Shown here: positions 12,558 through 58,370 of the stretch, in pieces | Numbering within the stretch: the stretch's first letter is position 1 | Layout of the letters: each line of letters opens with the position of its first letter | DNA from: Psychrobacter fulvigenes | GTDB taxonomy: Bacteria > Pseudomonadota > Gammaproteobacteria > Pseudomonadales > Moraxellaceae | DNA length: 64,000 nucleotides | Direction: 5' to 3' | Assembly (NCBI RefSeq): GCF_904846155.1 | Contig: NZ_CAJGZP010000001.1 | Coordinates: forward strand, 1,736,001 to 1,800,000 | Translations under genes and position numbers: made by a program | The notes under the pieces: generated by a model | The model's input: the letters and a program-made list of their open reading frames with translations, nothing else | What the model was told of the DNA's origin: nothing | Databases searched by the model: none

Positions 12558-13843
12558 ATGACTAACCAATCTGACATCAAGAAACTGGCCGAGCAAATGG
12601 CTGGTAGCATGAACAGCTTTGATGACATCAAAGACTTTCAAAAGCAGCTCATGCAGTCGTTTATCGACACTGCACTAGAAGCTGAGATGGAAGACCATCT
12701 CGGCTATCCTAAGCATGAGAAAGCAGACAAGCCTAATAAGCGCAATGGACACACTAAAAAGACCGTCTGTAGGTAGCGACACAGGCGATCTTGAGATATC
12801 AACCCCAAGAGACCGCGGTGGCAGCTTTGAGCCTGTACTCGTCAGTAAGCATCAAACCCGTATCTCAGGTCTTGACGATAAAATCATATTTAACTACAGG
12901 CACAGCCTTACGTCTTACGCTTCGGGCAACTGTCCCCCGGACACTTGATTCTCCTCGCTCATATGCCAAGGGTCAAACCACCACCGAGATTGTAGAGAGC
13001 ATTAAAGAGCTCTACGACGTCGACATCTCAAGCAGCTTGGTTTCCAGAGTCACTGACAACCTCTTGGATGACATCACCGCTTGGCAGAACCGGCCACTGA
13101 GCAGTGTTTATCCTATCGTCTACTTAGACTGCATTGTCGTCAAAGTTCGTCAGGACAAGCAGATCATCAACAAAGCTATCTATCTGGCCTTAGGCGTTGC
13201 TCTTGATAGTAAAAAAGAGCTGCTTGGTATGTGGCTATCAGAGAATGAGGGCGCTAAATTCTGGCTTGGTGTTCTCACTGAGCTACAAAACCTCGGGGTT
13301 CAAGATTTCCTCATTGCCTGTGTCGATGGTTTAAAAGGCTTCCCTGATGCCATTAACACCGTCTACCCCAACGCTCAGGTTCAGCTGTGTATCGTGCATA
13401 TGGTGCGCTATTCGATGAAGTTCGTACCTTGGACGGACAAGAAGGCCGTAGCAGCTGATTTAAAGGCCATCTACGGTGCTGATACGCTTGAGATGGCAGA
13501 GGCCAATCTTGAACACTTTGATGAAGTATGGGGCACAGAGTACCCGCATGTCATCAAGTCTTGGCGTAATAACTGGGAGGGCTTAACGGTGTTCTTTGAG
13601 TACCCGAAAGACATCAGAAAAGCCATCTATACCACCAATGCTATCGAGTCGCTAAACAGCGTGATTCGAACGGCGGTGAATAAGCGTAAAGTATTCCCCT
13701 CTGATCAGGCTGCATTCAAGGTAGTATATCTGGCAACCCAGCAGGCCTCTAAAAAGTGGTCAATGCCCATCCGTAACTGGACGTCTGCTTTAAATCGCTT
13801 TATGATTATGTTTGATGACCGTATTAGTAAGCATTTAATCTAA
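12558..13843 (+). pseudogene. IS256-family transposase, frameshifted and interrupted
   Basis: Three reading frames are needed. Frame one (12558-about 12770) gives the N-terminal part up to HTKKTV. A shift near 12770 moves to SDTGDLEISTPRDRGGSFEPVLVSKHQTRISGLDDKIIF (about 12777-12890). After a foreign stretch of about 70 bp, a third frame resumes at SYAKGQTTTEIVESIKELYDVD (about 12958) and continues to the end with the DDE-type core: VYLDCIVVKVR, IACVDGLKGFPDAI, IVHMVR and YTTNAIESLNSVIR. Unlikely to be active. Confidence 0.85.
12884..12964. other. Foreign insert inside the IS256 transposase
   Basis: TCATAT occurs at 12884-12889 and again at 12959-12964. Between them is a more GC-rich stretch unlike an IS256 transposase, containing the near-perfect dyad CAACTGTCC-CCC-GGACACTTG (12928-12948, one mismatched pair). 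No coding sense is seen. It may be a short mobile repeat or a rearrangement scar. Confidence 0.45.
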
Positions 13844-29162: not shown

Positions 29163-30225
29163 GGTGTAATGGACAAAATTCATGCTAAAAAGTAGAAGGT
29201 AGTCGCTAATGGACATAATTCATGCTATTTGCGTGACTTTGAGAGTAAAAAGTCTTTAATAAACCGTAACTTACGGTGCTCATTTAAGCCATGATGACTG
29301 TGTAATTGCCGCTTGAGCTTACTAAATAAACCTTCAAGCGTATTGGTTGTATTTGGTATATCTAAGTGCTCATATTCTTGATAAGTAAACAACCAATCAC
29401 TGTTGGTTCGCAGGCTACGATAAGCACTTCTAAGACGCTTATGCGTGTACCAAGTTCTACCCGTATCCTCATTGGTACTACGTTCACTGAGATAGGCTTC
29501 GTAAGTCAGGTACCAGTGATCTAAGCACTTTATGAACGCGGCTTTATCAAGCTGTGTTAGGGTCAAAGTAAGCTGCCTAAGCTCAATGCTAGCGATATTC
29601 TTAGGGCGACGAGTCAGGTAGCGAGTCACTATTTGTATCTGATGAAACTGGCACATCTGACAAGGAGTACTGGTAAATAGCGTTCTAAGTCCTCGTCTAC
29701 CACCACAGGTGATGCTTTGTATATCAATGCCTAGCACCTTTAAGTAATCAATCCCTTGCTTATAGGCACTATTGGTTTCATGACTGACTATAGCGTAATG
29801 GAGAACCATTCTAGTAGCGTTGTCCATAAATACCATGAGACCAAACCCACGGCCAAAATAGGTCGTGTCCATGATGATATTAGCACGCTTAGGTCGTTTG
29901 ATTTGGTACTCAATACTCACTTTGTCTAAGCGTCTTTGAATGGTTTTAAGACTACAGTGGTACTTGTCAGCCAGTTGTTTATACGTCTGTTTCCCTTGCG
30001 TATATTCAGTCCAAAGCATTTGGTTATTGAGTCTTGTGCCCCCTAAAAACTGCCGTTTGCAAGATAGGCATTGGTACTGTTGTTTGCCTAGTTTGCGTCC
30101 ATTCCTTTTAGTGTGTTTATCACTACAAAAAGGGCAGTTTTTTGATTCATAGCGTTGATTCCTTGCAAATATAGACAGTATATAGCGTTAGACCCTGTGT
30201 CAGCATGAATAATGTCCATTACACC
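29163..30225 (-). mobile_element. IS256/IS1249-like insertion sequence with 8-bp target duplication
   Basis: Ends are inverted repeats: GGTGTAATGGACA plus ATTCATGCT on the left (29163-29186) and the inverse on the right (30202-30225). TATATCGC flanks both sides (29155-29162 and 30226-30233), an exact 8-bp target duplication, so this is a recent and precisely bounded insertion of 1063 bp. A second partial copy of the left repeat lies inside at about 29207-29227. Confidence 0.93.
29225..30150 (-). pseudogene. IS1249-like (variant zinc-finger) transposase, N-terminal frame offset
   Basis: The main frame runs to about 30145 and encodes a zinc-ribbon NCPFC...YQCLSCKRQF, a helix-turn-helix KTIQRRLDKVS, and a DDE-type core from IMDTTYFGRGFGLMVFMDNATRMVLHYAI to NTLEGLFSKLKRQLH. 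The ATG at 30150 has AAGG about 11 bp upstream but lies one base out of frame; one more A in the A6 run (30138-30143 on the minus strand) would join them as MNQKNCPFC. Programmed -1 slippage, a mutation or a sequencing error could each explain this. Confidence 0.8.
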
Positions 30226-30358: not shown

Positions 30359-32182
30359 CTAATCAATAGACCCTAGCTGATCTTTTGCTAGCGGCATGAC
30401 ACTAAACATCATCTTACCCATCGCAGTACCCTTGCCATCACGGTAGTACTGGATAAGCTCGCTACCATACTCACGTAAGTCAATACTATTACTCGCGTTC
30501 GGAATCTGCACATCGGCTGCTAAATTAGGGAATGCCATATCCTGCGTGCGCAAAGGCGAATACTGCTGCAGAATATCAATGACGATACCTTTATCTGACT
30601 TGTTGCGTACTGACTGAGTCTGGCTTGGAAACTCGCTACGTATATGCTGCCATTTAATCTGCCCACGTTTATCGAGACCGTACAGCTCTTGTATGGCTAA
30701 GTCCTCGCTTAGACTAGCTTTTGGAATGACATCTGTCGGGCTACTGCCGTTATCAATCATGCTTTTTATCAACGCTAGCGCCTGTTGTACCATGGCCTTA
30801 CTGGTAAATCCTCTATCTTCAGAATCAGTGATATTTTCTGCCTGCTCAAACATCTGATTGTCCTTTACCAGCTCAGGATACTGCTTGGTAATACGATCGT
30901 AAAAGAGGCGCATATAATCTTGATAAAACTGCTCATAATCCTCTGTACTTTGGACACGGCTGATCACTTGAGTACTTGCTAGCATTGTTGGCAGTTGATG
31001 CTGAGGCATTTTAGGAGTAAGCGAGGCTAAGGTGTTAGGCGCTACATAATTGAACTGGCTAACAGGGGCGCGCTCATAAGTACGATCTAACGCTTCAAAA
31101 TGGGCTTTTATCACCTCGCCACCAAAACCTTTGGGCAGCGTCCCATCATCCATGGCTATTTTTAGCCACTTATTTCTCCACTTAGTACCCAGCTTATCGT
31201 CTAACAGCTCTGAATTTAGCATAGCAAAGTTATCTGCCCATAGATAAATATTGCCATTTTTAAAATCGATATAGATAGGCTGATTGATACTGCTTTGATG
31301 ATTACGTGCTTGATATTGCACACTGGCGAGCATGGTAGCCTTGCCAGCCATTGGCTGATAAATCCCTTGCGCATTAATAGACAGTGGCTTTAGCAAATAA
31401 GCATCCAACAGCTGAGCTTTTTTGATATCTTGCGGCGTTGGTTTGTCGTCATAATTATCAAATAGCTGCTGATAGTATGGCGAAACAGTCTTTTCTTTGA
31501 CAACATTGTCATTACTGGCGTTACTCTTAATGGTTCTTGTCTCAACAAGACTATCTCCTTCACCTCCATATTCTTCCTCTATGGCAGTCAGCAATTTACG
31601 ATTACTATCTTCGTTAGCTTCGTTAGCATTATCGCTGTTTTGTGACGTATGATCAGAGCCGTAATTGTAATTAGAACTGTCATCATAGTCAGCGTTATAG
31701 CGACTATTGTACTGATTGTCTTCCCATGCTTGATAAGCGTCTGAACATGCTAGATAAGACTGTTTGATGGCGCTACGCTGAGCATCATACTCTGTCGCTA
31801 ATACTTCCTTATCTTGTGCTTCAGCTTGCTCTAATAATGCCGCGTATGCCTTGTCGTGAGTATCTTCACAGTGCGCTTCGACATAATCTGACACGGCCAG
31901 TTGCTGACTATCCACATCGGTGAATTGCTGATCATTACTGACTTCAAGATTGCTATGGTAGCTAAAAGACTGGCGGCGCTGTTTTTGTAATGCATTTGCC
32001 AATGCCGTTTTGGCAGCCGCTGGCGTTTGGTTTGTAGCCATCGTATTGCTTTGACCCAGACTGGTCGATTGGCAGCCAGTAGCTAATATAGCCCCAGACA
32101 AAACGCTACCAATCAATAAAACCTTATGTTTTGTAATCGTAAAATGCCAAGGTGACGTTACAGAGTGAGAGTCAGTTTTCAT
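30359..32182 (-). CDS. Large lipoprotein of unknown function, tandem member 2
   Basis: 607 residues with a lipobox ILATGC (Cys37), so probably a surface or periplasmic lipoprotein. I do not recognise a family. Residues about 150-200 form an acidic Asn/Tyr/Asp/Ser-rich linker; the C-terminal two thirds look globular, with a segment starting about residue 280 (MLASVQYQARNHQSSINQP, IYIDFKNGNIYLW) that resembles by eye a segment in the neighbouring lipoprotein. It follows that gene by 74 bp on the same strand and may be co-transcribed. Acidic overall. Confidence 0.75.
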   Translation of the reverse strand: MKTDSHSVTSPWHFTITKHKVLLIGSVLSGAILATGCQSTSLGQSNTMATNQTPAAAKTALANALQKQRRQSFSYHSNLEVSNDQQFTDVDSQQLAVSDYVEAHCEDTHDKAYAALLEQAEAQDKEVLATEYDAQRSAIKQSYLACSDAYQAWEDNQYNSRYNADYDDSSNYNYGSDHTSQNSDNANEANEDSNRKLLTAIEEEYGGEGDSLVETRTIKSNASNDNVVKEKTVSPYYQQLFDNYDDKPTPQDIKKAQLLDAYLLKPLSINAQGIYQPMAGKATMLASVQYQARNHQSSINQPIYIDFKNGNIYLWADNFAMLNSELLDDKLGTKWRNKWLKIAMDDGTLPKGFGGEVIKAHFEALDRTYERAPVSQFNYVAPNTLASLTPKMPQHQLPTMLASTQVISRVQSTEDYEQFYQDYMRLFYDRITKQYPELVKDNQMFEQAENITDSEDRGFTSKAMVQQALALIKSMIDNGSSPTDVIPKASLSEDLAIQELYGLDKRGQIKWQHIRSEFPSQTQSVRNKSDKGIVIDILQQYSPLRTQDMAFPNLAADVQIPNASNSIDLREYGSELIQYYRDGKGTAMGKMMFSVMPLAKDQLGSID

Positions 32183-32256: not shown

Positions 32257-34338
32257 TCAAAATTTATTTTCTTCAGCGACGTCATACTCAAGATCATCCT
32301 CAGCATCGGTAATATCATATGGTGTGTCGTAATCGCTCATGTAGCTGTCATCGTTATAATCATAGTCATAACGCGCATAACGTGCCGCTCTCAGTCTCTC
32401 TTTGTGTTGGCGTTGTTTTGCAATCCAAGCATTACCATCGATAGCAGGCGCAGCATTCGCGCCAAAAGACTCTGCTAATAAGGGGGTTAACGCATGTTTA
32501 TTAAAGCTGGCTTTATCGTAGCGTATTTGGTTCACGACTGTCGTTGTAGAGCCCATCAAATCCCCACCGATGTTCATGCGCTGCTGCTTGGCAAGGAGAC
32601 GATCTGAGCTGTCCAAGTAATAATAATTGATCTGGTTAAACGAGATAGGAGCAATGGCTTCGATGAGCTGTAATAGTGCGCCCACATCGGCACTTTGATA
32701 GCCTTTATTGTACAGCTGCAACTTATCGAGCGCAGTTTTAAGTTTTGCACCATCAGGATATTTCCCTGGATTGGCATCGACATACTCTTGTAAAGATTGC
32801 GTCATGTATTTGAGCACTTTGCCAATCATCTCACCGCTTTGCTGGCTACCAAAATATACCTTTACCGCTTTAGAAGCGCCTACCTGCTTGGCAAATTGAT
32901 CACCGCGTATGTCTACCGCGCTAAAGTGCTCTGGTGCCAACTCGGCCATACTATCCTGTATGGCGGCAATGGCGGCATCATAGATCACTGCTGATGGTAG
33001 CTGCGAGGCAATGCTCTCAGGTAAGCCAAAATTTACGGTATGCGAGGTCATCTGCGCAGGCAGTGGTGTATTATCAGGGTTGGCAAGCGCCACAATAGGC
33101 ATGATTGCCGAAGGGTCAACAGTGATGCTACTGTTAGCAAAATCAAAGGCCAAAGGTATCTGCACCGATGAGCTAATCGTCGGTGTGACATAGTCATAGC
33201 TATAGACACTTTGTAGTTGCTTTTGCTGAGGCTTGTATTGGCTGACACTGTTAAAAGTCAAATTTTGATACTGATAGGCATTCGACGCCGCTACCTGTTC
33301 TGGAGTGCGATGGATCATGCTAAGTAGTTGACCAACCATGCCTGCTGATGATGAAGGTGGAAACTCATTTTCTGCGCTAGCAGTCTCTTTTTGCTGCTTA
33401 GCCGTTTGCATGGCTTCGTAGTTTTTTAACAGTTTTCTGGGCTGTAGGCCTGACATTTTTGAGAGCAAACTATTATCTGCATCACGACTACAATCATCTT
33501 CTAGGCTATCTCCATACCGATCATAACCATACTCATCGTAGCCATCAGGATCATAACCTTCTTCGTCATAGCCGTACCAGTCATAGCCGTCTCTATCATA
33601 GCCATTCTGATCGAAACCGTCCTCATCATAGCCATATTCATCGTATTCTATAGCAGCCGATTCGTATGCTTCCTCTTCTACGACGACCACTTCATCCGCG
33701 GCATCAACATAAGCGTCATAGTCATAAGCTTCCTCTGCTTCTGCTGCGGCTTCTTCTACAGCATCATACTCGCCGTATTCATCATAGCCTTCATAGTCCG
33801 AGTCATATTCCGAATCATAGTCGTCTGAGGCTGCCTTTTTATAAGCATAGGTTTCAATAATCGTTCTGAGTAAACTGCTAGAGCCCGCATCGATACTGTC
33901 TGGATGAATAAAAGGCACCGCTTGATAATTGGCTTGTGCCACTGCCACATGCTCTGTGGCTAAGTGCTGACGAATAGCGGTCAGCAGGCGCAATTTGGCT
34001 TGATTTTCAGTATTGGGATATTGGCTTTGGTCAAATAACTGCGCGTAATGTTCGGACTTCGCATTTAAGCTTGCGTTAAACGCTCGACCCTGTGCTTGGT
34101 TTTGCGTAGTATTTGCGCTATTAAAATCAATTAAGGATCCTGACACGCCAGCAGACTGCGACACAGTCGGGCTTGATTGACAGCCTGCTAGCACCATAGT
34201 TGCACTACCTAGCAACAGCGCGCACCCTACTAAAGATGGCCATTTATGCCTATGGTTTGTATCATTTATAGATAAGCGATTAGATACTGAATGAGCGCTG
34301 TACTTTTGATCATGGTTGCTAACGTGGTGTGATGGCAT
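32257..34338 (-). CDS. Large acidic lipoprotein with Tyr/Asp/Gly repeats, tandem member 1
   Basis: About 693 residues with lipobox MVLAGC. After residue 165 comes a strongly acidic stretch (Asp/Glu/Tyr/Ala, about 165-225), then repeats of the form GYDxxGYD (GFDQNGYDRDGYDWYGYD and so on, about 235-275), recalling Asp-rich calcium-binding repeats. The C-terminal half (about 370-650) appears globular, with SVYSYDYVTPTISSSVQIPL in the position where the neighbour has its SVQYQ segment. The ATG at 34338 has GGGAT upstream; 34368 is the alternative. No known family recognised. Confidence 0.75.
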   Translation of the reverse strand: MPSHHVSNHDQKYSAHSVSNRLSINDTNHRHKWPSLVGCALLLGSATMVLAGCQSSPTVSQSAGVSGSLIDFNSANTTQNQAQGRAFNASLNAKSEHYAQLFDQSQYPNTENQAKLRLLTAIRQHLATEHVAVAQANYQAVPFIHPDSIDAGSSSLLRTIIETYAYKKAASDDYDSEYDSDYEGYDEYGEYDAVEEAAAEAEEAYDYDAYVDAADEVVVVEEEAYESAAIEYDEYGYDEDGFDQNGYDRDGYDWYGYDEEGYDPDGYDEYGYDRYGDSLEDDCSRDADNSLLSKMSGLQPRKLLKNYEAMQTAKQQKETASAENEFPPSSSAGMVGQLLSMIHRTPEQVAASNAYQYQNLTFNSVSQYKPQQKQLQSVYSYDYVTPTISSSVQIPLAFDFANSSITVDPSAIMPIVALANPDNTPLPAQMTSHTVNFGLPESIASQLPSAVIYDAAIAAIQDSMAELAPEHFSAVDIRGDQFAKQVGASKAVKVYFGSQQSGEMIGKVLKYMTQSLQEYVDANPGKYPDGAKLKTALDKLQLYNKGYQSADVGALLQLIEAIAPISFNQINYYYLDSSDRLLAKQQRMNIGGDLMGSTTTVVNQIRYDKASFNKHALTPLLAESFGANAAPAIDGNAWIAKQRQHKERLRAARYARYDYDYNDDSYMSDYDTPYDITDAEDDLEYDVAEENKF

Positions 34339-34516
34339 AAAGATCCCATTGTTTAGACGGATGGACATTTGTAGATAAGATATGGTTATTATTTATAACA
34401 CAAAACATTACAAATGAGTGAGTAATAAGTAGCCTCTAATTAAAATTCTGCTTTAATTAAGGTATGATAAGATTCATATTGCCTTTATAATCATTATCTG
34501 AGCTAAATTATTCGCC

Positions 34517-37387
34517 ATGTCCGTCTATCAATTAAAGACTCAATTTCAAGATAAGCTGCGCCCTATCAGTGACCAATTGGTAGATATGGGTGTGACTGCT
34601 AATCAAGTCACCATTAGTGCCATCGTACTAAGTGCTAGTACGGCTTATGTCATTGCGACGCTTGATACACAATCAAATACTGTTAATAACGCAACAGATA
34701 AGGATTTAAAAGAGTCAAACTCTGCAAAACCATCCATATATAAAAGCCAGAAACATAACAGCCATCAAGTTTGGTGGCTATTACCTATTTCTTTGTTTGT
34801 ACGCATGGCGTTAAATGCCATAGACGGCATGATGGCACGCGAGCACAAGCAAGCCTCTCGTCTTGGTGCTGTACTCAATGAAGTGGGTGATATCGCTTCA
34901 GATGGCCTTCTCATCGCTGGCTTAGCGCCACATCTGCCTACACAAAGTCGCCATGGCAGCCATCACCTAGGACTCATTATTGCTCTAAGTACGCTTACTG
35001 AACTGATAGCCATTGCCGCCAATATCACGACAAAACAACGCGCGAATCACGGACCTTTGGGTAAAAGTGACCGAGCATTAGAATTGGGTATTATCGGGGC
35101 ATTTATAGGCTCTGGCATTACGCAGCGTTATTCAAATAGCAGCTATATGTGCGCCATACGCCCATTATTGTGGCTCAATGGGCTACTACTATTAAAAACT
35201 ACTGCCAATCGCTTAACTTTTATTGCTAGCCATTATTTTGCACAATGGCATCCTGCACCAGCTCTAAAACCGGCTACCAATCAAAACTCCTTCATTATTG
35301 ACAGCCTAATAACAATACCAACATCTAACACCAAGCCTGATATAAAATCTCGTATGCCTATTAATATCAACAACACTCATAAAAACACCACTGCATCTGC
35401 TTTGCAACCGCATGGCTTACAAGGACGTATCAATATGCAACCATCCAACACCAAATCAAATGCTTATAAAAATACGAACATAACCAAATCAAACGCTAGT
35501 ACCACCTCTAAAACTTCGGCTAATGGTAAAGCCATGCCTATCATCGCTGAGCAAAGCTGCTTTAATGCTTATGATGGCACAGCGATTTATTATCGTTATT
35601 GGTTGACCCTGCCACTGGCAGATATTGCAGACCACGCCAAGCCAAATAAAAAGCGACAAGTCATCTTGTTGCACCGTGGTCATGAGCATTCAGGGCGCTT
35701 AACTGAGCTGGCTGAACGCTTTGTGCAAGCAGGCTATCAAGTATTTGCTTGGGATGCGCGCGGCAATGGACGCTCTGGCGGTATAAAAGACCACGCCGAT
35801 AGTGTCACCGAGCTTGAGCGTGACCTCAATGATTTTGTGAACTTAGTCATCATGCAGACGGGTATCGCTATTGAAGATACATTGATAGTCGCTAGCAGCA
35901 TCGGCGCAGTATTAGCCGCTGCTTGGGTACACGACTATGCGCCAACCATCCGCGGTATGATACTGGGCACGCCAGCACTGAGTATTCGCCTATATATACC
36001 CTTGGCAATACCTGCATTGAAGGTTGCCCGCAAGTTTGGCCTTATGTCACGCGTCTCAAGCTATGTCAAAGCCCAAGTGCTCACCCATGATAAAGAAGCA
36101 CAGGCCGCCTACAATGCCGATCCATTGATATCAGGTTCTATCTCTAGCGACTTATTGATAGATACCCATGCCACCGGTCAAAGGCTGTTAGATGATGCCA
36201 GCGTTATCACCACACCTACCTTTATACTGTGCGCAGGTAAAGACTACATCGTGGACAAGCAAGCTGAGCGCACCTTTTATGAGCAGCTGAGCTCGCAGAA
36301 TAAACGTTGGCAGCTGTATCCTGACAGTTTTCACGCCATTTTTCATGAGACCAATAAAGCGGATGTTTTTACGGATTGTATCGACTTTGCAGACAGTCTA
36401 TTTGCACAGCCTGTTACGACGCAAGACTTAACCCATGCGCATATGGGTAGCGCCAGTAAAGATAAAGTCGACCGCCTAGCGATCAAGCCATTCAATCCAA
36501 GCTTTGCCCTGACTCGTTTTGCCATGCAAAAATTCGGTCACGTCAGCGATGCTATTGCTACTGGGCTTGAACACGGATTTGACTCTGGCAGCTCTTTAGA
36601 CAAGGTTTATGCCAACACGCCTAAAGGTAAAAACGCCTTTGGTAAAGCCGTTGATAAGTTTTATCAGAGCAACATTGGCTGGCAAGGGATTCGTATTCGC
36701 CGTCAGCATATATTAGAGCTGACGCGCATGGCTATTCATAATAAGGAGAATAAAAAGCATCAGCAGCCAGCAACCGCAAAACTTGCTGCAAAGCCTATAC
36801 GAGTGCTAGATATCGCCAGTGGTAATGGTTATTACGTGTTTGACTTGCTTGCTGAGTTTGAGCAATTAAGCGCCGAGCTGAGAGATTATGATGCGCATAA
36901 TGTGCAAGTGCTCAGAGACAAGGCGCAAAGACTTGGCTTTGATGAGCGCGTTATCGCTGTGAAGAAAGATGCTTTTGACGCAGATAGTTATCGTGACAAT
37001 TATTTAAAAAATAGCGATTCAAAAAATAGCGATTCAAAAAATAGCGTTGAAAACAATAGCATCGAAAACAACAGCTTTGATATCGCCATTGCCTCTGGTA
37101 TTTTTGAGTTATTCTCAGATAATGCTTTAGTGAGTACTGCATTAAAGGGTATAAACGACAGTTTGGCATCGGGAGGTTATTTGCTTTATACCAACCAGCC
37201 TTGGCATCCTGAACAAGAATTCATCAGTAAAACCCTCAATAACCATCGTGGCAGCAGCTGGGTGATGCGCTGTCGCTCACAAGCAGAGATGGATCAACTG
37301 GTCATGCAAGCAGGCTTTAAAAAGCTAGACATGCGCATTGACCGCTTCGGTATTTTTACCGTCTCCCTCGCTATTAAAGCCAATTGA
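34517..37387 (+). CDS. YnbA-YnbC-like fusion: phosphatidyltransferase / alpha-beta hydrolase / methyltransferase
   Basis: 956 residues in three modules. Residues 1-235: a CDP-alcohol phosphatidyltransferase with the DGMMAR motif at Asp103; the following GxxxDxxxD pattern reads GAVLNEVGD, so one Asp is Asn. About 236-345: an Asn/Thr/Ser-rich linker. About 345-635: an alpha/beta hydrolase (HRGHEHSGR, WDARGNGRSGG, nucleophile Ser461 in ASSIG, Asp in KDYIVDKQ, His in FHAIFHE). About 690-956: a SAM methyltransferase (VLDIASGNGYYVFDL). E. coli encodes YnbA and the hydrolase/methyltransferase YnbC separately in ynbABCD. A short (KNSDS)n repeat lies in the last domain. Role in phospholipid modification is inferred. 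Confidence 0.85.
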   Translation: MSVYQLKTQFQDKLRPISDQLVDMGVTANQVTISAIVLSASTAYVIATLDTQSNTVNNATDKDLKESNSAKPSIYKSQKHNSHQVWWLLPISLFVRMALNAIDGMMAREHKQASRLGAVLNEVGDIASDGLLIAGLAPHLPTQSRHGSHHLGLIIALSTLTELIAIAANITTKQRANHGPLGKSDRALELGIIGAFIGSGITQRYSNSSYMCAIRPLLWLNGLLLLKTTANRLTFIASHYFAQWHPAPALKPATNQNSFIIDSLITIPTSNTKPDIKSRMPININNTHKNTTASALQPHGLQGRINMQPSNTKSNAYKNTNITKSNASTTSKTSANGKAMPIIAEQSCFNAYDGTAIYYRYWLTLPLADIADHAKPNKKRQVILLHRGHEHSGRLTELAERFVQAGYQVFAWDARGNGRSGGIKDHADSVTELERDLNDFVNLVIMQTGIAIEDTLIVASSIGAVLAAAWVHDYAPTIRGMILGTPALSIRLYIPLAIPALKVARKFGLMSRVSSYVKAQVLTHDKEAQAAYNADPLISGSISSDLLIDTHATGQRLLDDASVITTPTFILCAGKDYIVDKQAERTFYEQLSSQNKRWQLYPDSFHAIFHETNKADVFTDCIDFADSLFAQPVTTQDLTHAHMGSASKDKVDRLAIKPFNPSFALTRFAMQKFGHVSDAIATGLEHGFDSGSSLDKVYANTPKGKNAFGKAVDKFYQSNIGWQGIRIRRQHILELTRMAIHNKENKKHQQPATAKLAAKPIRVLDIASGNGYYVFDLLAEFEQLSAELRDYDAHNVQVLRDKAQRLGFDERVIAVKKDAFDADSYRDNYLKNSDSKNSDSKNSVENNSIENNSFDIAIASGIFELFSDNALVSTALKGINDSLASGGYLLYTNQPWHPEQEFISKTLNNHRGSSWVMRCRSQAEMDQLVMQAGFKKLDMRIDRFGIFTVSLAIKAN
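37005..37075 (+). repeat. In-frame 15-bp tandem repeat
   Basis: AAAAAATAGCGATTC is repeated twice perfectly and then degenerates into two or three further copies, giving KNSDSKNSDSKNSVENNS in the methyltransferase module. The unit is 15 bp, so copy-number change keeps the frame. Confidence 0.85.
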
Positions 37388-37406
37388 TAAAAAGCCACTT
37401 GATAAA

Positions 37407-38609
37407 ATGACAGACTCCTCTTTTCATCCTTATGCGCGCGTTCAGCTGTTTTCTGGTGGTGGCGCGCGCTTTGGTTACTACCTTGGTAGTTATGCGGCAT
37501 TATGCGCTCATGACTTAAAGCCTGACCTGATACTCGCGACCTGTGGTGGTAGTCTATCTGCGCTATTGATAGACATCAGCTCAGACCCACAGCAGCTTAA
37601 AACATTAGCAGAGAGTAAGACCTTATATCAGGTGGTGCAATCTATTCAGGCACGCCAACATTACCGCTCATCAGTAGATCTATTAACAAAGATCAGTAGT
37701 ACATCAAAACCGCGCTACTTTTACCATGCTTTAAAGCGTTGGGGTCTTATGCAAAGATCCGCGCTGCTCGGCAGCATCCACAGCCGTGAGACATCTGACG
37801 ATCTGTTATCAGAATTGAATCGCCTTGCTATGTTCGAAATCGATAATGATGACTATTGGCTTGATGAGCTTATCAAGCTAAAAGAGCCTTCAATCCCAAC
37901 TAACGCCCTTGCTAATTTCAAACCAACAGCACCAGATATCGCCATCGTTGCCAGCCGAATAGCGCAGAGCGATATCGACCTACAACCTAAACAGCAAGCC
38001 GTCGCTCGACTACAAGAGTTACTGTTCACCCCGCATAAGCTCACCTCTCACTTAGAGCAATTATCCTTACACTGCCCTACCCATCATTATGCACCGCAGC
38101 GCATTCTCAAAAACACTCATGTCGTTGACCATTGGGATATCAAGCAAGCTATCAGAGCCTCGAGGGGTGATATGTATTATCTGCGTCCAACCCATATTCC
38201 CACCTTAGGCTGGCGTCTCGGGGGCGTGATTAACTTGACACCCATTGAGCTGGCAGCGCAGTTTGGCAGCACTGTATTTGCTGAACACAAATCTCCTTAC
38301 GATAAGGTACTGGCCGCGCCAGCCATTAGACGTATCTTTGGTTTTGATCCAAATAGGCGCTTAGCAGAAACGCTGGCTTATCAAAGTAATTTATCTGGTA
38401 CTCCGCCTAACAATGAACGCATTCACTGGTTGCCTTTTGCTGACAATGGAAAGGCTTTATCAGGTCAGCATGTACGCAAGCGTCTGAACATCTTAAACGG
38501 GCGCATAGACTTGATTCATGCAGATTACGATGGCTTCGTACAACAAATGCAAGCGCAGTGGCAATACGGCTATGAGCGTACGCGTGATTATTTAAAAACC
38601 CAACAGTAG
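37407..38609 (+). CDS. Patatin-like phospholipase-family protein
   Basis: 400 residues from the ATG at 37407; a longer reading from 37338 overlaps the upstream gene and is unlikely. The N-terminus has the patatin oxyanion element SGGGARFGYYLGSYAAL and a nucleophile elbow CGGSLSAL, where the usual GxSxG ends in Ser rather than Gly (Ser49). The C-terminal part is helical and I cannot place the catalytic Asp with certainty. It starts 20 bp after the fusion gene, so the two are probably co-transcribed in a lipid-remodelling unit. Loss of activity is possible because of the altered elbow. Confidence 0.78.
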   Translation: MTDSSFHPYARVQLFSGGGARFGYYLGSYAALCAHDLKPDLILATCGGSLSALLIDISSDPQQLKTLAESKTLYQVVQSIQARQHYRSSVDLLTKISSTSKPRYFYHALKRWGLMQRSALLGSIHSRETSDDLLSELNRLAMFEIDNDDYWLDELIKLKEPSIPTNALANFKPTAPDIAIVASRIAQSDIDLQPKQQAVARLQELLFTPHKLTSHLEQLSLHCPTHHYAPQRILKNTHVVDHWDIKQAIRASRGDMYYLRPTHIPTLGWRLGGVINLTPIELAAQFGSTVFAEHKSPYDKVLAAPAIRRIFGFDPNRRLAETLAYQSNLSGTPPNNERIHWLPFADNGKALSGQHVRKRLNILNGRIDLIHADYDGFVQQMQAQWQYGYERTRDYLKTQQ

Positions 38610-56519: not shown

Positions 56520-56760
56520 CGCGCTATTTCTCATTTGAGATTTAGACTGACCACGACTCCACAGACTTTTTTAATTGGCGATGGAACTCACCGTCCAATA
56601 AACAGGATTATGCAGCTGTTAAGATAACTGTTGCGTTATTTAAAATATTAATACTGGCGTTCAGGTCACGGTCATGAGAAACCTGACAGTTAGGGCACAA
56701 CCACTCACGCATTTTCAATGTTAGCTCATCTTTACCAAGGATATGATTGCAGTTTGAACA
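56520..56760 (-). ncRNA. Probable omega (guide-scaffold) RNA region of TnpB
   Basis: In TnpB systems the guide-scaffold RNA comes from the 3' end of tnpB and the DNA beyond it to the element edge. Here that is the last ~150 bp of tnpB plus about 90 bp downstream, ending near a TCTCA-AA-TGAGA hairpin (56527-56540 region). Position and edges are inferred from the family. Confidence 0.4.
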
Positions 56761-57762
56761 GGTTTTTGAGCTTGGGTAGAAGGGTCCGACTGATTTCACA
56801 ACCTTGCCTTGCTCAGTGGCTTTGTAGATAAGCTGTCGCTTAAACTCAAAGAAACCCAAGTCACTGATAGCTCTTGATAGCCGCCTGTTCTTAACCATAC
56901 CTTTGACGTTTAAATCCTCAATCGCAATCACATCGAACTCATTAACCAGACTTGTTGTGATTTGATGGAGAGAATCCTGCCTGATACACCTGATTTTGTA
57001 GTGCAAACGAGAGAGCTTGGTTTTCGCTTTTTCTCTGTTTTTACTGCCTTTTTTAGTGCGACTGAGCGCTTTGTTTAGCGTTCTTAGTTTTTTAAGGTTT
57101 GCTTGAAGTGGTTTTGGCGCTTTAATTTTAGTGCCGTCTGATAAAACCAGTAAGTCGGTAATACCAAGATCAACACCAACGCTTTTACCTGTCTTTTTAG
57201 TAGGAATTACAGCTTTTTGTATTTCAACAGCCACACTAACAAACCACTTACCGCCACGTTTAGAGATGGTGGCTGACATGATCTTGCCGTCAAAACGTAA
57301 AGCTTCTTTTAAGCGAACCCAGCCCAAGTTTGGGATACGAATGGATTTACCTTTAATGGCAAATTGGTCGTTGGATAAACTGAATCTATCGTCACGGCCT
57401 TTTTTACGAGCGGTTGGGTATTTCGCTAAGCCTTTAAAGAAGTTGTTATAAGCATCACCCAACTGCATGATTGCCGCCTGCGGAGCGCATTTGGTCACTT
57501 CCAGCATATAGGGGAATAATTCACGCTTAATGGCGTTCAATTCGCGTCTGAGCTTCGCCTGTGAGGGCTTGTTTAGATTTTTAGTATCAACCTCAACGCC
57601 TGCGGCCAAACACGCATCACGGTACGCTTTGTCAAGCGCATACTGCCGCTGCCACTCATGCAAAGCCCAGTTGTAGGCTTTTCTCGCCACGCCACAATCA
57701 CGAGCAAGGTGATTTGCCTGTACGTTGTTTGGCTTGAGTTCGATAATGTGTCCACGGATCAT
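56608..57762 (-). CDS. tnpB: TnpB, RNA-guided endonuclease of the transposon
   Basis: 384 residues, full length. RuvC residues are intact: Asp198 in GVDLG, Glu282 in IAIEDLNVKG, Asp366 in SHDRDLNAS. A four-Cys zinc site lies at 335, 338, 356 and 359 (CSNC ... CPNC). N-terminal Lys/Arg-rich wedge-like region matches IS605/IS607 TnpB (a Cas12 ancestor). It would cut DNA at sites matching the element's guide. Start overlaps the tnpA stop (ATGA), so it depends on tnpA translation. Confidence 0.92.
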   Translation of the reverse strand: MIRGHIIELKPNNVQANHLARDCGVARKAYNWALHEWQRQYALDKAYRDACLAAGVEVDTKNLNKPSQAKLRRELNAIKRELFPYMLEVTKCAPQAAIMQLGDAYNNFFKGLAKYPTARKKGRDDRFSLSNDQFAIKGKSIRIPNLGWVRLKEALRFDGKIMSATISKRGGKWFVSVAVEIQKAVIPTKKTGKSVGVDLGITDLLVLSDGTKIKAPKPLQANLKKLRTLNKALSRTKKGSKNREKAKTKLSRLHYKIRCIRQDSLHQITTSLVNEFDVIAIEDLNVKGMVKNRRLSRAISDLGFFEFKRQLIYKATEQGKVVKSVGPFYPSSKTCSNCNHILGKDELTLKMREWLCPNCQVSHDRDLNASINILNNATVILTAA

Positions 57763-58370
57763 AATGCTTTTTTAACCGCCTCTATTAATTGTTGGTTTTT
57801 CTTGCTGCAAGAGCCGTATAGCCTCGCTGAAAATACGGTGATAATCTCCAATACATCTTGGGCTAATTCTTGCTCAAAACTCAACTCTTCACCTTGATTG
57901 ATTATTACCACTTCAACGTCACGAGCCTCACACAACATGAAAACCAGTTCTGCACCAAATCGTAAAAGCCTGTCTTTATGGGTAATTACCAGCCGTTCAA
58001 CTTTATTGCTCAGTATGTCATCAAGCAGGTTTTTTAAGCCTTTCTTTTTATAATTCATTCCACTACCAAGATCGGTAATCGTCTCAAAAGTCCAGCCTTG
58101 CCTGGCACAATAAAGTTCCAAAACTTGAGACTGGCGAAGTAAGTCGTCTTTTTGATCACGACTCGACACACGAGCATAAGCAATGGTTTTTCGGTCTAAT
58201 TTAGGTGGTGTATTTAAGGAATGCGGTCTGATTTCACTTAAATCATATCGCCTATGCCCGTTTTCGGTTCGCTTGGCGACTAACGTACCATCCTCATCCC
58301 AACGTCTTAATGTGGATTGAGCAACCCCGAAATGTTTGGCAGCCTCCCCAATACTAACCAGTTTCCCCAT
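57759..58370 (-). CDS. tnpA: IS607-type serine recombinase TnpA
   Basis: 203 residues. N-terminal MerR-like helix-turn-helix (SIGEAAKHFGVAQSTLRRWDEDGTLVAKRTENGHRRY), then a serine recombinase catalytic domain with Ser69 in YARVSSRDQ and Arg residues in HKDRLLRFG. Order (DNA-binding first, catalytic second) is the IS607 arrangement. It would mobilise the element. The start lies 16 bp from the border of the 109-bp repeat. Confidence 0.92.
   Translation of the reverse strand: MGKLVSIGEAAKHFGVAQSTLRRWDEDGTLVAKRTENGHRRYDLSEIRPHSLNTPPKLDRKTIAYARVSSRDQKDDLLRQSQVLELYCARQGWTFETITDLGSGMNYKKKGLKNLLDDILSNKVERLVITHKDRLLRFGAELVFMLCEARDVEVVIINQGEELSFEQELAQDVLEIITVFSARLYGSCSKKNQQLIEAVKKAL

Follow-up and report, generated by a model that had tools for sequence, protein, structure and literature searches.

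The YnbA-YnbC fusion gene of Psychrobacter fulvigenes and its patatin-like partner as a proposed variant of the ynb/arc1 lipid module

The ynb genes of E. coli and the arc1 cluster of P. aeruginosa

The closest described relatives of the locus presented here are the ynbABCD operon of E. coli and antagonism resistance cluster 1 (arc1) of P. aeruginosa. We analysed a stretch of 64,000 nucleotides from Psychrobacter fulvigenes (NCBI RefSeq assembly GCF_904846155.1, contig NZ_CAJGZP010000001.1, positions 1,736,001 to 1,800,000 of the forward strand), referred to as the window, in which a single frame at 34517-37387 of the plus strand unites YnbA and YnbC and is followed by a gene for a patatin-like protein. 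In our judgement it is fairly probable that this frame encodes a fused Arc1A-Arc1B (YnbA-YnbC) protein belonging to an accessory pathway of phospholipid synthesis or repair.

A sequence-only reading of the window had assigned YnbA and YnbC to two proteins of the E. coli operon, and in strain K-12 ynbA, ynbB, ynbC and ynbD are indeed separate genes. According to the literature, cited here and below for those parts of the open-access texts that were consulted, BglJ-RcsB activates ynbA (PMC12871917), and polyphosphate was raised by an insertion in ynbC in one E. coli background but not by a deletion in the Keio background (PMC2435150). EcoCyc has withdrawn an assignment that it once gave to YnbA (PMC3781023), and diacylglycerol cholinephosphotransferase, an old label already withdrawn, was rejected here as a candidate function. 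For the operon as a whole, no assignment of a product was found in the consulted open-access literature.

The arc1A-F genes (PA2541-36) are six Gac/Rsm-controlled genes, five of them lipid-related and four resembling enzymes of phosphatidylglycerol synthesis, that are needed under attack by B. thailandensis (Ting et al., PMC8926400). In a later study, cells required arc1A, in an auxiliary role, to resist the lipase effectors of V. cholerae and A. baylyi fully (PMC12663445). The product of the pathway is not stated in the consulted parts of these papers. Their main texts do not contain the term 'ynb', and the two literatures appear to be unconnected. Linking them offers three testable handles: a natural fusion, which indicates the enzymes with a common substrate path, a catalytic signature with a conserved alteration, and a probably inactive patatin beside a phospholipid pathway.

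The link itself comes from primers. The PA2541 cloning primer (PMC8926400) encodes MISVYQL, the exact N-terminus of the unfused YnbA in three of the loci that we read (L186, L188 and L189, group g259). The PA2536 deletion primer starts with M-N, as does YnbB of the same three loci. The PAO1 annotation of PA2541 as a CDP-alcohol transferase, PA2537 as an acyltransferase and PA2536 as a cytidylyltransferase agrees. Seven primer fragments were compared with the fetched loci and none matched with fewer than three mismatches. Since the PA2541 primer encodes the N-terminus of one group of YnbA, YnbA is, judged by sequence, very probably Arc1A.

Domains of the fusion protein and of its patatin-like neighbour

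The frame at 34517-37387 (+) starts with ATG and encodes 956 residues. A Pfam search bears out the earlier assignment of a CDP-alcohol transferase, a hydrolase and a methyltransferase to this one protein, with matches to CDP-OH_P_transf, Hydrolase_4 and Methyltransf_20, and of a Patatin domain to the downstream gene; the quoted motifs were located at residues 117-125 (GAVLNEVGD) and 459-463 (ASSIG) of the fusion and 47-51 (GGSLS) of the patatin-like protein. The YnbA-like CDP-alcohol phosphotransferase domain comprises residues 1-248 (34517..35260, +) and shares 38% identity with E. coli YnbA; PF01066 matches residues 75-197 with 25.0 bits (cut-off 22). The YnbA part is joined to the YnbC part by a low-complexity linker at residues ~236-345 (35222..35551, +), its limits being approximate.

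In CDP-alcohol phosphotransferases (CDP-AP), the eight residues of the signature D1xxD2G1xxAR...G2xxxD3xxxD4 are described as conserved without exception; metal is bound by D1, D2 and D3, whereas D4 is the likely base, and changing D4 to Asn nearly abolished the activity of the phosphatidylinositol phosphate (PIP) synthase of M. tuberculosis, MtPIPS (Clarke et al., PMC4634129). The window protein retains six of the eight (residues 100-125, 34814..34891, +): D2 (D103) and D4 (D125) are kept, whereas D1 is N100 (in NAIDG) and D3 is N121. The sequence-only reading was thus right about an Asn at a catalytic Asp position, but there are two such positions, not one. The resulting N-D-N-D signature was found in 118 of 120 listed matches to the fusion (of 1394 database proteins, the window's own included; 872-974 residues long), the remaining two having Lys for the Arg of AR, which argues against chance. 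It was likewise present in E. coli YnbA, in all 29 unfused YnbA genes that we read and in 114 of 120 matches to E. coli YnbA; the six deviating matches comprise one with D at D1, one with G at D4 and four off-pattern cases (truncated or shortened motif, or Arg changed). As both Asn residues are common to E. coli YnbA, the pair does not mark the fusion and is a trait of the family. Because D1 and D3 are Asn, leaving only six of the eight residues, we place YnbA on sequence grounds among the divergent relatives of the CDP-alcohol phosphotransferases and not among their canonical members.

Across 30 diverse YnbA domains, N100, D103, E109, N121, E122, D125, D129 and GPxGKSDRA are invariant. A profile of these 30 domains matched chain 6h53 with an E-value of 6.5e-10 over profile positions 8-196 of 203, and further matches were other PIP synthases, AF2299 and cholinephosphotransferases. 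We took 6h53 to be MtPIPS, since its signature is the one tabulated for M. tuberculosis in PMC8727905 and the numbering places D4 at 93. D4 (D125), the invariant R186 and R232 (in at least 90% of the 30 domains) align to D93, R155 and R195 of MtPIPS, the two arginines being the proposed binding residues for the phosphate group of inositol phosphate (PMC4634129). This near full-length alignment with solved PIP synthases speaks, as far as sequence goes, against the idea that the first module lacks the CDP-alcohol transferase fold. The fold of the family has six membrane helices; five hydropathy peaks were seen in the window domain and six in E. coli YnbA. YnbA thus resembles bacterial PIP synthases (MtPIPS, RsPIPS) in D2, D4, G1, A, G2 and the acceptor arginines, but differs in the Asn at D1 and D3, in the Lys that replaces the Arg of AR in some members, and in an NCBIfam PIPSynth score far under the cut-off (36.6 versus 170 bits). 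Given that D4 and both acceptor-phosphate arginines are retained, we expect a functional site in which the metal shell is altered and the predicted acceptor bears a phosphate. The arc1A phenotype also suggests that the N-D-N-D signature is probably compatible with function in vivo.

The YnbC part (residues 375-954) is 39% identical to E. coli YnbC. Its alpha/beta hydrolase domain (Hydrolase_4, residues 377-613, E 4e-57; 35645..36355, +) carries the triad S461-D576-H606, and the S-adenosylmethionine (SAM) methyltransferase domain that follows (Methyltransf_20, E 1.6e-85; 36383..37375, +) has the motif D765-x-A767-x-G769-x-G771, so that the domain order, triad and SAM motif of the YnbC class are all present. 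These triad and motif residues are conserved in at least 97% of 130 aligned YnbC sequences (120 fusions, the window's included, and 10 unfused ones, E. coli's included) and in all 11 of a reference subset, among them the 10 unfused. The nearest NCBIfam model for the hydrolase is the lysophospholipase L2 (E 1.4e-12, far below the cut-off). With family identities of 38-39%, the same Asn-substituted signature, the triad and the SAM motif, the fusion matches E. coli ynbA and ynbC; the operon differs in its separate genes, with ynbB between ynbA and ynbC, in having ynbD, and in that no patatin or short-chain dehydrogenase/reductase (SDR) is annotated.

The conserved Asn pair and the lysophospholipase-like hydrolase raise the question if YnbA is a pseudoenzyme that anchors or senses CDP-diacylglycerol, the fused hydrolase and methyltransferase clearing lysolipids or fatty acids after phospholipase attack. 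Asn occupies D1 and D3 in every motif-fitting YnbA that we read, except for the database match with D at D1, and loss of arc1A sensitises cells to lipase toxins (PMC12663445). On the other hand, the invariance of D4, D2 and R186, and the near invariance of R232, in the 30 sequences would be needless for a mere anchor, and a CdsA paralogue travels with YnbA (see below). We consider this explanation unlikely.

The patatin-like frame runs from an ATG at 37407 to 38609 (+) and encodes 400 residues; it does lie downstream of the fusion gene, as had been reported, although at a distance of 19 and not 20 bp. PF01734 (Patatin) matches with 38.6 bits (cut-off 27.7). Patatins use a Ser-Asp dyad, with the serine in GxSxG and the aspartate in DG[GA]. 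We aligned 128 patatin-like sequences (the window's, eight from loci and 119 of the 120 listed among 341 matches). The glycine loop is intact in this set, and the elbow (GGSLS in the window, 37545..37559, +) has Ser in 123 sequences, Ala in three Moraxella sequences and P0135, and Cys in P0221. The column of the DG[GA] aspartate holds Leu in 125 (in the window Leu271, 38217..38219, +), Phe in two and Met in one, and Asp in none. We located this column by aligning the sequence with PlpD (5fqu), a weak match with an E-value of 0.003 for the chain and 1.3 for that stretch alone; the conserved context RAS...GGVI.LTP supports the placement. D255 is invariant (128/128) and could in principle serve another role. 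The protein shares with the patatin-like phospholipases PlpD and VipD the glycine-rich oxyanion loop and the elbow region, but is without the DG[GA] aspartate, has GGSLS or GGSLA in place of GxSxG and has lost the serine in Moraxella. Because the catalytic Asp is absent throughout and Ser is replaced by Ala in the three Moraxella sequences, we predict a pseudoenzyme that is probably not a lipase, and the candidate function of an active dyad lipase was rejected.

Distribution and arrangement of the genes

A survey of other Psychrobacter genomes, proposed in the sequence-only reading, showed the fusion to be conserved across the genus. Scanning the contigs of named genomes gave 52 loci, in 45 of which the YnbA and YnbC motifs share one frame; the other seven are four Moraxella loci with two adjacent genes and three Psychrobacter loci with broken frames. 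Frames are broken in L080, L082, L083, G003 and G034, by decay or by sequencing error. Of 36 Psychrobacter genomes compared, 23 carry the fusion (G003 and G034 being two of these carriers), and one of the 13 non-carriers, G014, is only 83% complete. None of the 29 other loci that we read has a frame with both motifs. A second, independent fusion was suspected in an 823-residue open frame of G428 and was dismissed: YnbA lies there in a different frame and does not form the N-terminal part of this one.

Whether the fusion means anything for function could be questioned, as neighbouring genes of unrelated roles may simply have lost their boundary. In Moraxella, ynbA and ynbC are overlapping or closely spaced, and one change would be enough to join them; the linker varies widely in length (141-271 residues from GKSDR to HRGHEHS over 46 fusions, 207 in the window). 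However, the fused frame is kept wherever the named loci are neither broken nor from Moraxella, and the two genes share a locus also when unfused (see next paragraph). Joining without a common substrate seems very unlikely to us.

For the unfused relatives we used PF12147 as the model of the YnbC methyltransferase. It was found in 27 of 398 genomes of a phylum sample, in 8 of 274 of a class sample (seven over the cut-off) and in 14 of 99 of a family sample. By tblastn we read 29 loci, which are not a random draw: the four strong ones of the class, five of the family (three Moraxella, two of another genus) and 20 of the 25 new phylum matches. All 29 have ynbA together with ynbC, on opposite strands in L108 and L193, which contradicts the idea that the modules are unlinked in relatives. 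In addition, 26 loci contain ynbB, 26 ynbD, 21 a PlsC-like acyltransferase (a label taken from Pfam PF01553 in three loci) and 13 a small protein x; one locus (L112) ends at a contig end. The ynbB frames of L129, L131 and L137 are intact (301-303 residues), and a PlsC-like gene was seen in none of the three Moraxella clusters. The commonest order, A-C-D-x-PlsC-B, resembles P. aeruginosa arc1A-F in comprising six genes, five of them lipid-related. Psychrobacter differs from arc1 in that A and C are fused, a patatin-like gene and an SDR are present and ynbD may be lacking. The small conserved protein x lies beside ynbD (e.g. L107:5521-5985 (-) and L111:5810-6235 (-)), gave no Pfam match in the two cases tested and would be arc1D by position.

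The same 23 of 36 Psychrobacter genomes have four genes in common, namely the fusion, the patatin-like gene, an SDR (PF00106) and ynbB, a second CdsA (CTP_transf_1), and in 21 of the 23 the four are contiguous by coordinates. We placed 35 genomes on a tree of seven proteins of the cdsA region (2114 columns), leaving out G014, which has no cdsA match. Carriers and non-carriers are interleaved, with nine changes by Fitch parsimony, nine losses under Dollo and again nine with nodes below 0.8 support collapsed. In all eight non-carriers examined (of 13) the block of four is missing exactly, the flanking genes being adjacent; together with the contiguity of the genes, this means that each joint loss may be a single deletion event. 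In a further 20 genomes, the Psychrobacter and Moraxella carriers have the patatin-like gene in eight of nine cases and the second CdsA in nine of nine. Two carriers of another genus are without the patatin-like gene, one of which, at a contig end, shows no second CdsA; the nine non-carriers have no second CdsA and one very weak patatin match.

Genes that are not linked to this block are better evidence of joint function than its loss. ynbD is present in 15 of the 23 carriers, in several of them unlinked (it adjoins the unit in G034 and G035), and no intact copy was found in the 13 non-carriers (Fisher p 9e-5, ignoring relatedness). Remnants occur in two genomes without the unit, as fragments in G019 and as a stop-interrupted copy in G023 (L124) whose C-terminal half is open. 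In G034, ynbB is more than 1 Mb from the rest of the unit and all four genes are kept. In the window's genome, the fusion and the patatin-like gene are ~760 kb from ynbB and the SDR: ynbB lies at G000:C1:2536900-2537850 (E 6e-131; the ordinary CdsA copy is also present, E 1.4e-22), and the site G000:C1:2536900-2538717 (in locus L173, G000:C1:2534862-2539753) holds only ynbB and the SDR between the usual flanking genes. Because these remain between the same flanking genes that border the whole unit elsewhere, the arrangement is most simply explained by a move of the fusion and the patatin-like gene away from this site.

Proposed pathway and neighbouring genes

Taken as a whole, the evidence is best explained if Psychrobacter and Moraxella have their own variant of the ynb/arc1 lipid module, to which a probably dead patatin and an SDR have been added and in which YnbA and YnbC are fused in Psychrobacter. 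YnbB would make CDP-diacylglycerol, and YnbA would pass the phosphatidyl group of this lipid on to a phosphorylated acceptor, as suggested by the retained base Asp and the two phosphate arginines of PIP-synthase type. Where present, YnbD, as a dual-specificity phosphatase, may remove the acceptor phosphate. The YnbC hydrolase might remove acyl chains or lysolipids, and the methyltransferase might modify the product or a released fatty acid at the cytosolic face. The patatin-like protein would be a catalytically dead accessory, with a role in binding or regulation. Homology to P. aeruginosa arc1 points to survival of attack by the lipid-cutting toxins of other bacteria as the likely benefit.

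The earlier proposal that headgroup synthesis, acyl cleavage and methylation act on one lipid is well supported as far as a shared pathway is concerned, given the common locus of ynbA and ynbC and the co-occurrence of the four genes, but not in the part that assigned acyl cleavage to the patatin, which has no dyad Asp. Since its triad is intact, the hydrolase inside the fusion is the better candidate, if cleavage occurs.

Several points weigh against this proposal. Two of the three metal-binding Asp are Asn, so that transferase activity is not assured. The joint loss of a contiguous block says less about a common function than might be supposed. In the window's genome no match to ynbD was found, and no patatin match was obtained in G394 (P. 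coccoides, L032), a carrier of the fusion and of a second CdsA, which speaks against strict dependence. The identity of PA2541 with YnbA rests on seven encoded residues, the number and theme of the genes and the PAO1 annotation, and the PA2536 primer fragment was found in none of 293 genomes of the order. Furthermore, the arc1 phenotypes come from P. aeruginosa and not from Psychrobacter, and the role in the later study was auxiliary (PMC12663445). Finally, the consulted open-access literature yielded no biochemical function, substrate or product for YnbA or YnbC; the earlier remark that neither has a defined product still holds, although a phenotype has been published for the P. aeruginosa relative.

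The predicted phosphate-bearing acceptor of YnbA would also suit a dedicated route to the glycolipid MPIase, or to a similar pyrophosphate-linked sugar lipid. In such a route YnbB and YnbA would link a sugar phosphate with diacylglycerol phosphate, and the product would be trimmed or capped by the fused hydrolase-methyltransferase. Overproduction of E. coli YnbB raises MPIase, and membranes overproducing CdsA form a diacylglycerol linked by pyrophosphate to N-acetylglucosamine (GlcNAc-PP-DAG) from phosphatidic acid, CTP and GlcNAc-1-phosphate, a step that the authors also give to YnbB, which in their view can form the first intermediate of MPIase (PMC6362211, PMC7018664); the later enzymes of MPIase synthesis are unidentified according to PMC10881803. 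Yet MPIase is reported to be essential in E. coli and 13 of 36 Psychrobacter genomes lack the module, a ynbB knockout had normal MPIase, and ynbA is not mentioned in the main text of the same paper (PMC6362211). We see little chance for such a dedicated route. A broader conjecture, which we regard as quite unlikely to hold in full, is that YnbA/Arc1A with a rebuilt metal site would make an undescribed lipid from CDP-diacylglycerol and a phosphorylated acceptor, possibly an MPIase-like pyrophosphate-linked sugar lipid; the fused YnbC would trim and methylate it, a dead patatin that binds lysolipids would handle it, and resistance to phospholipase toxins would result.

An anti-phage system was also considered as a candidate and was discarded, there being no match in the PADLOC library. 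Upstream of the fusion gene, two adjacent genes for putative lipoproteins, a label from sequence, lie at 30359-32182 (-) and 32257-34368 (-), with 607 and 703 residues, the latter containing a run of YD-rich acidic repeats. Neither gave a Pfam match over the cut-off. Relatives occupy the same place in L032 and L033. Elsewhere in the window, the open reading frames at 29225-30019 (-) and 12791-13843 (+) are transposase-like, and an overlapping pair at 56608-58370 (-) resembles an IS607-type resolvase with TnpB; all of these are likely insertion-sequence genes.

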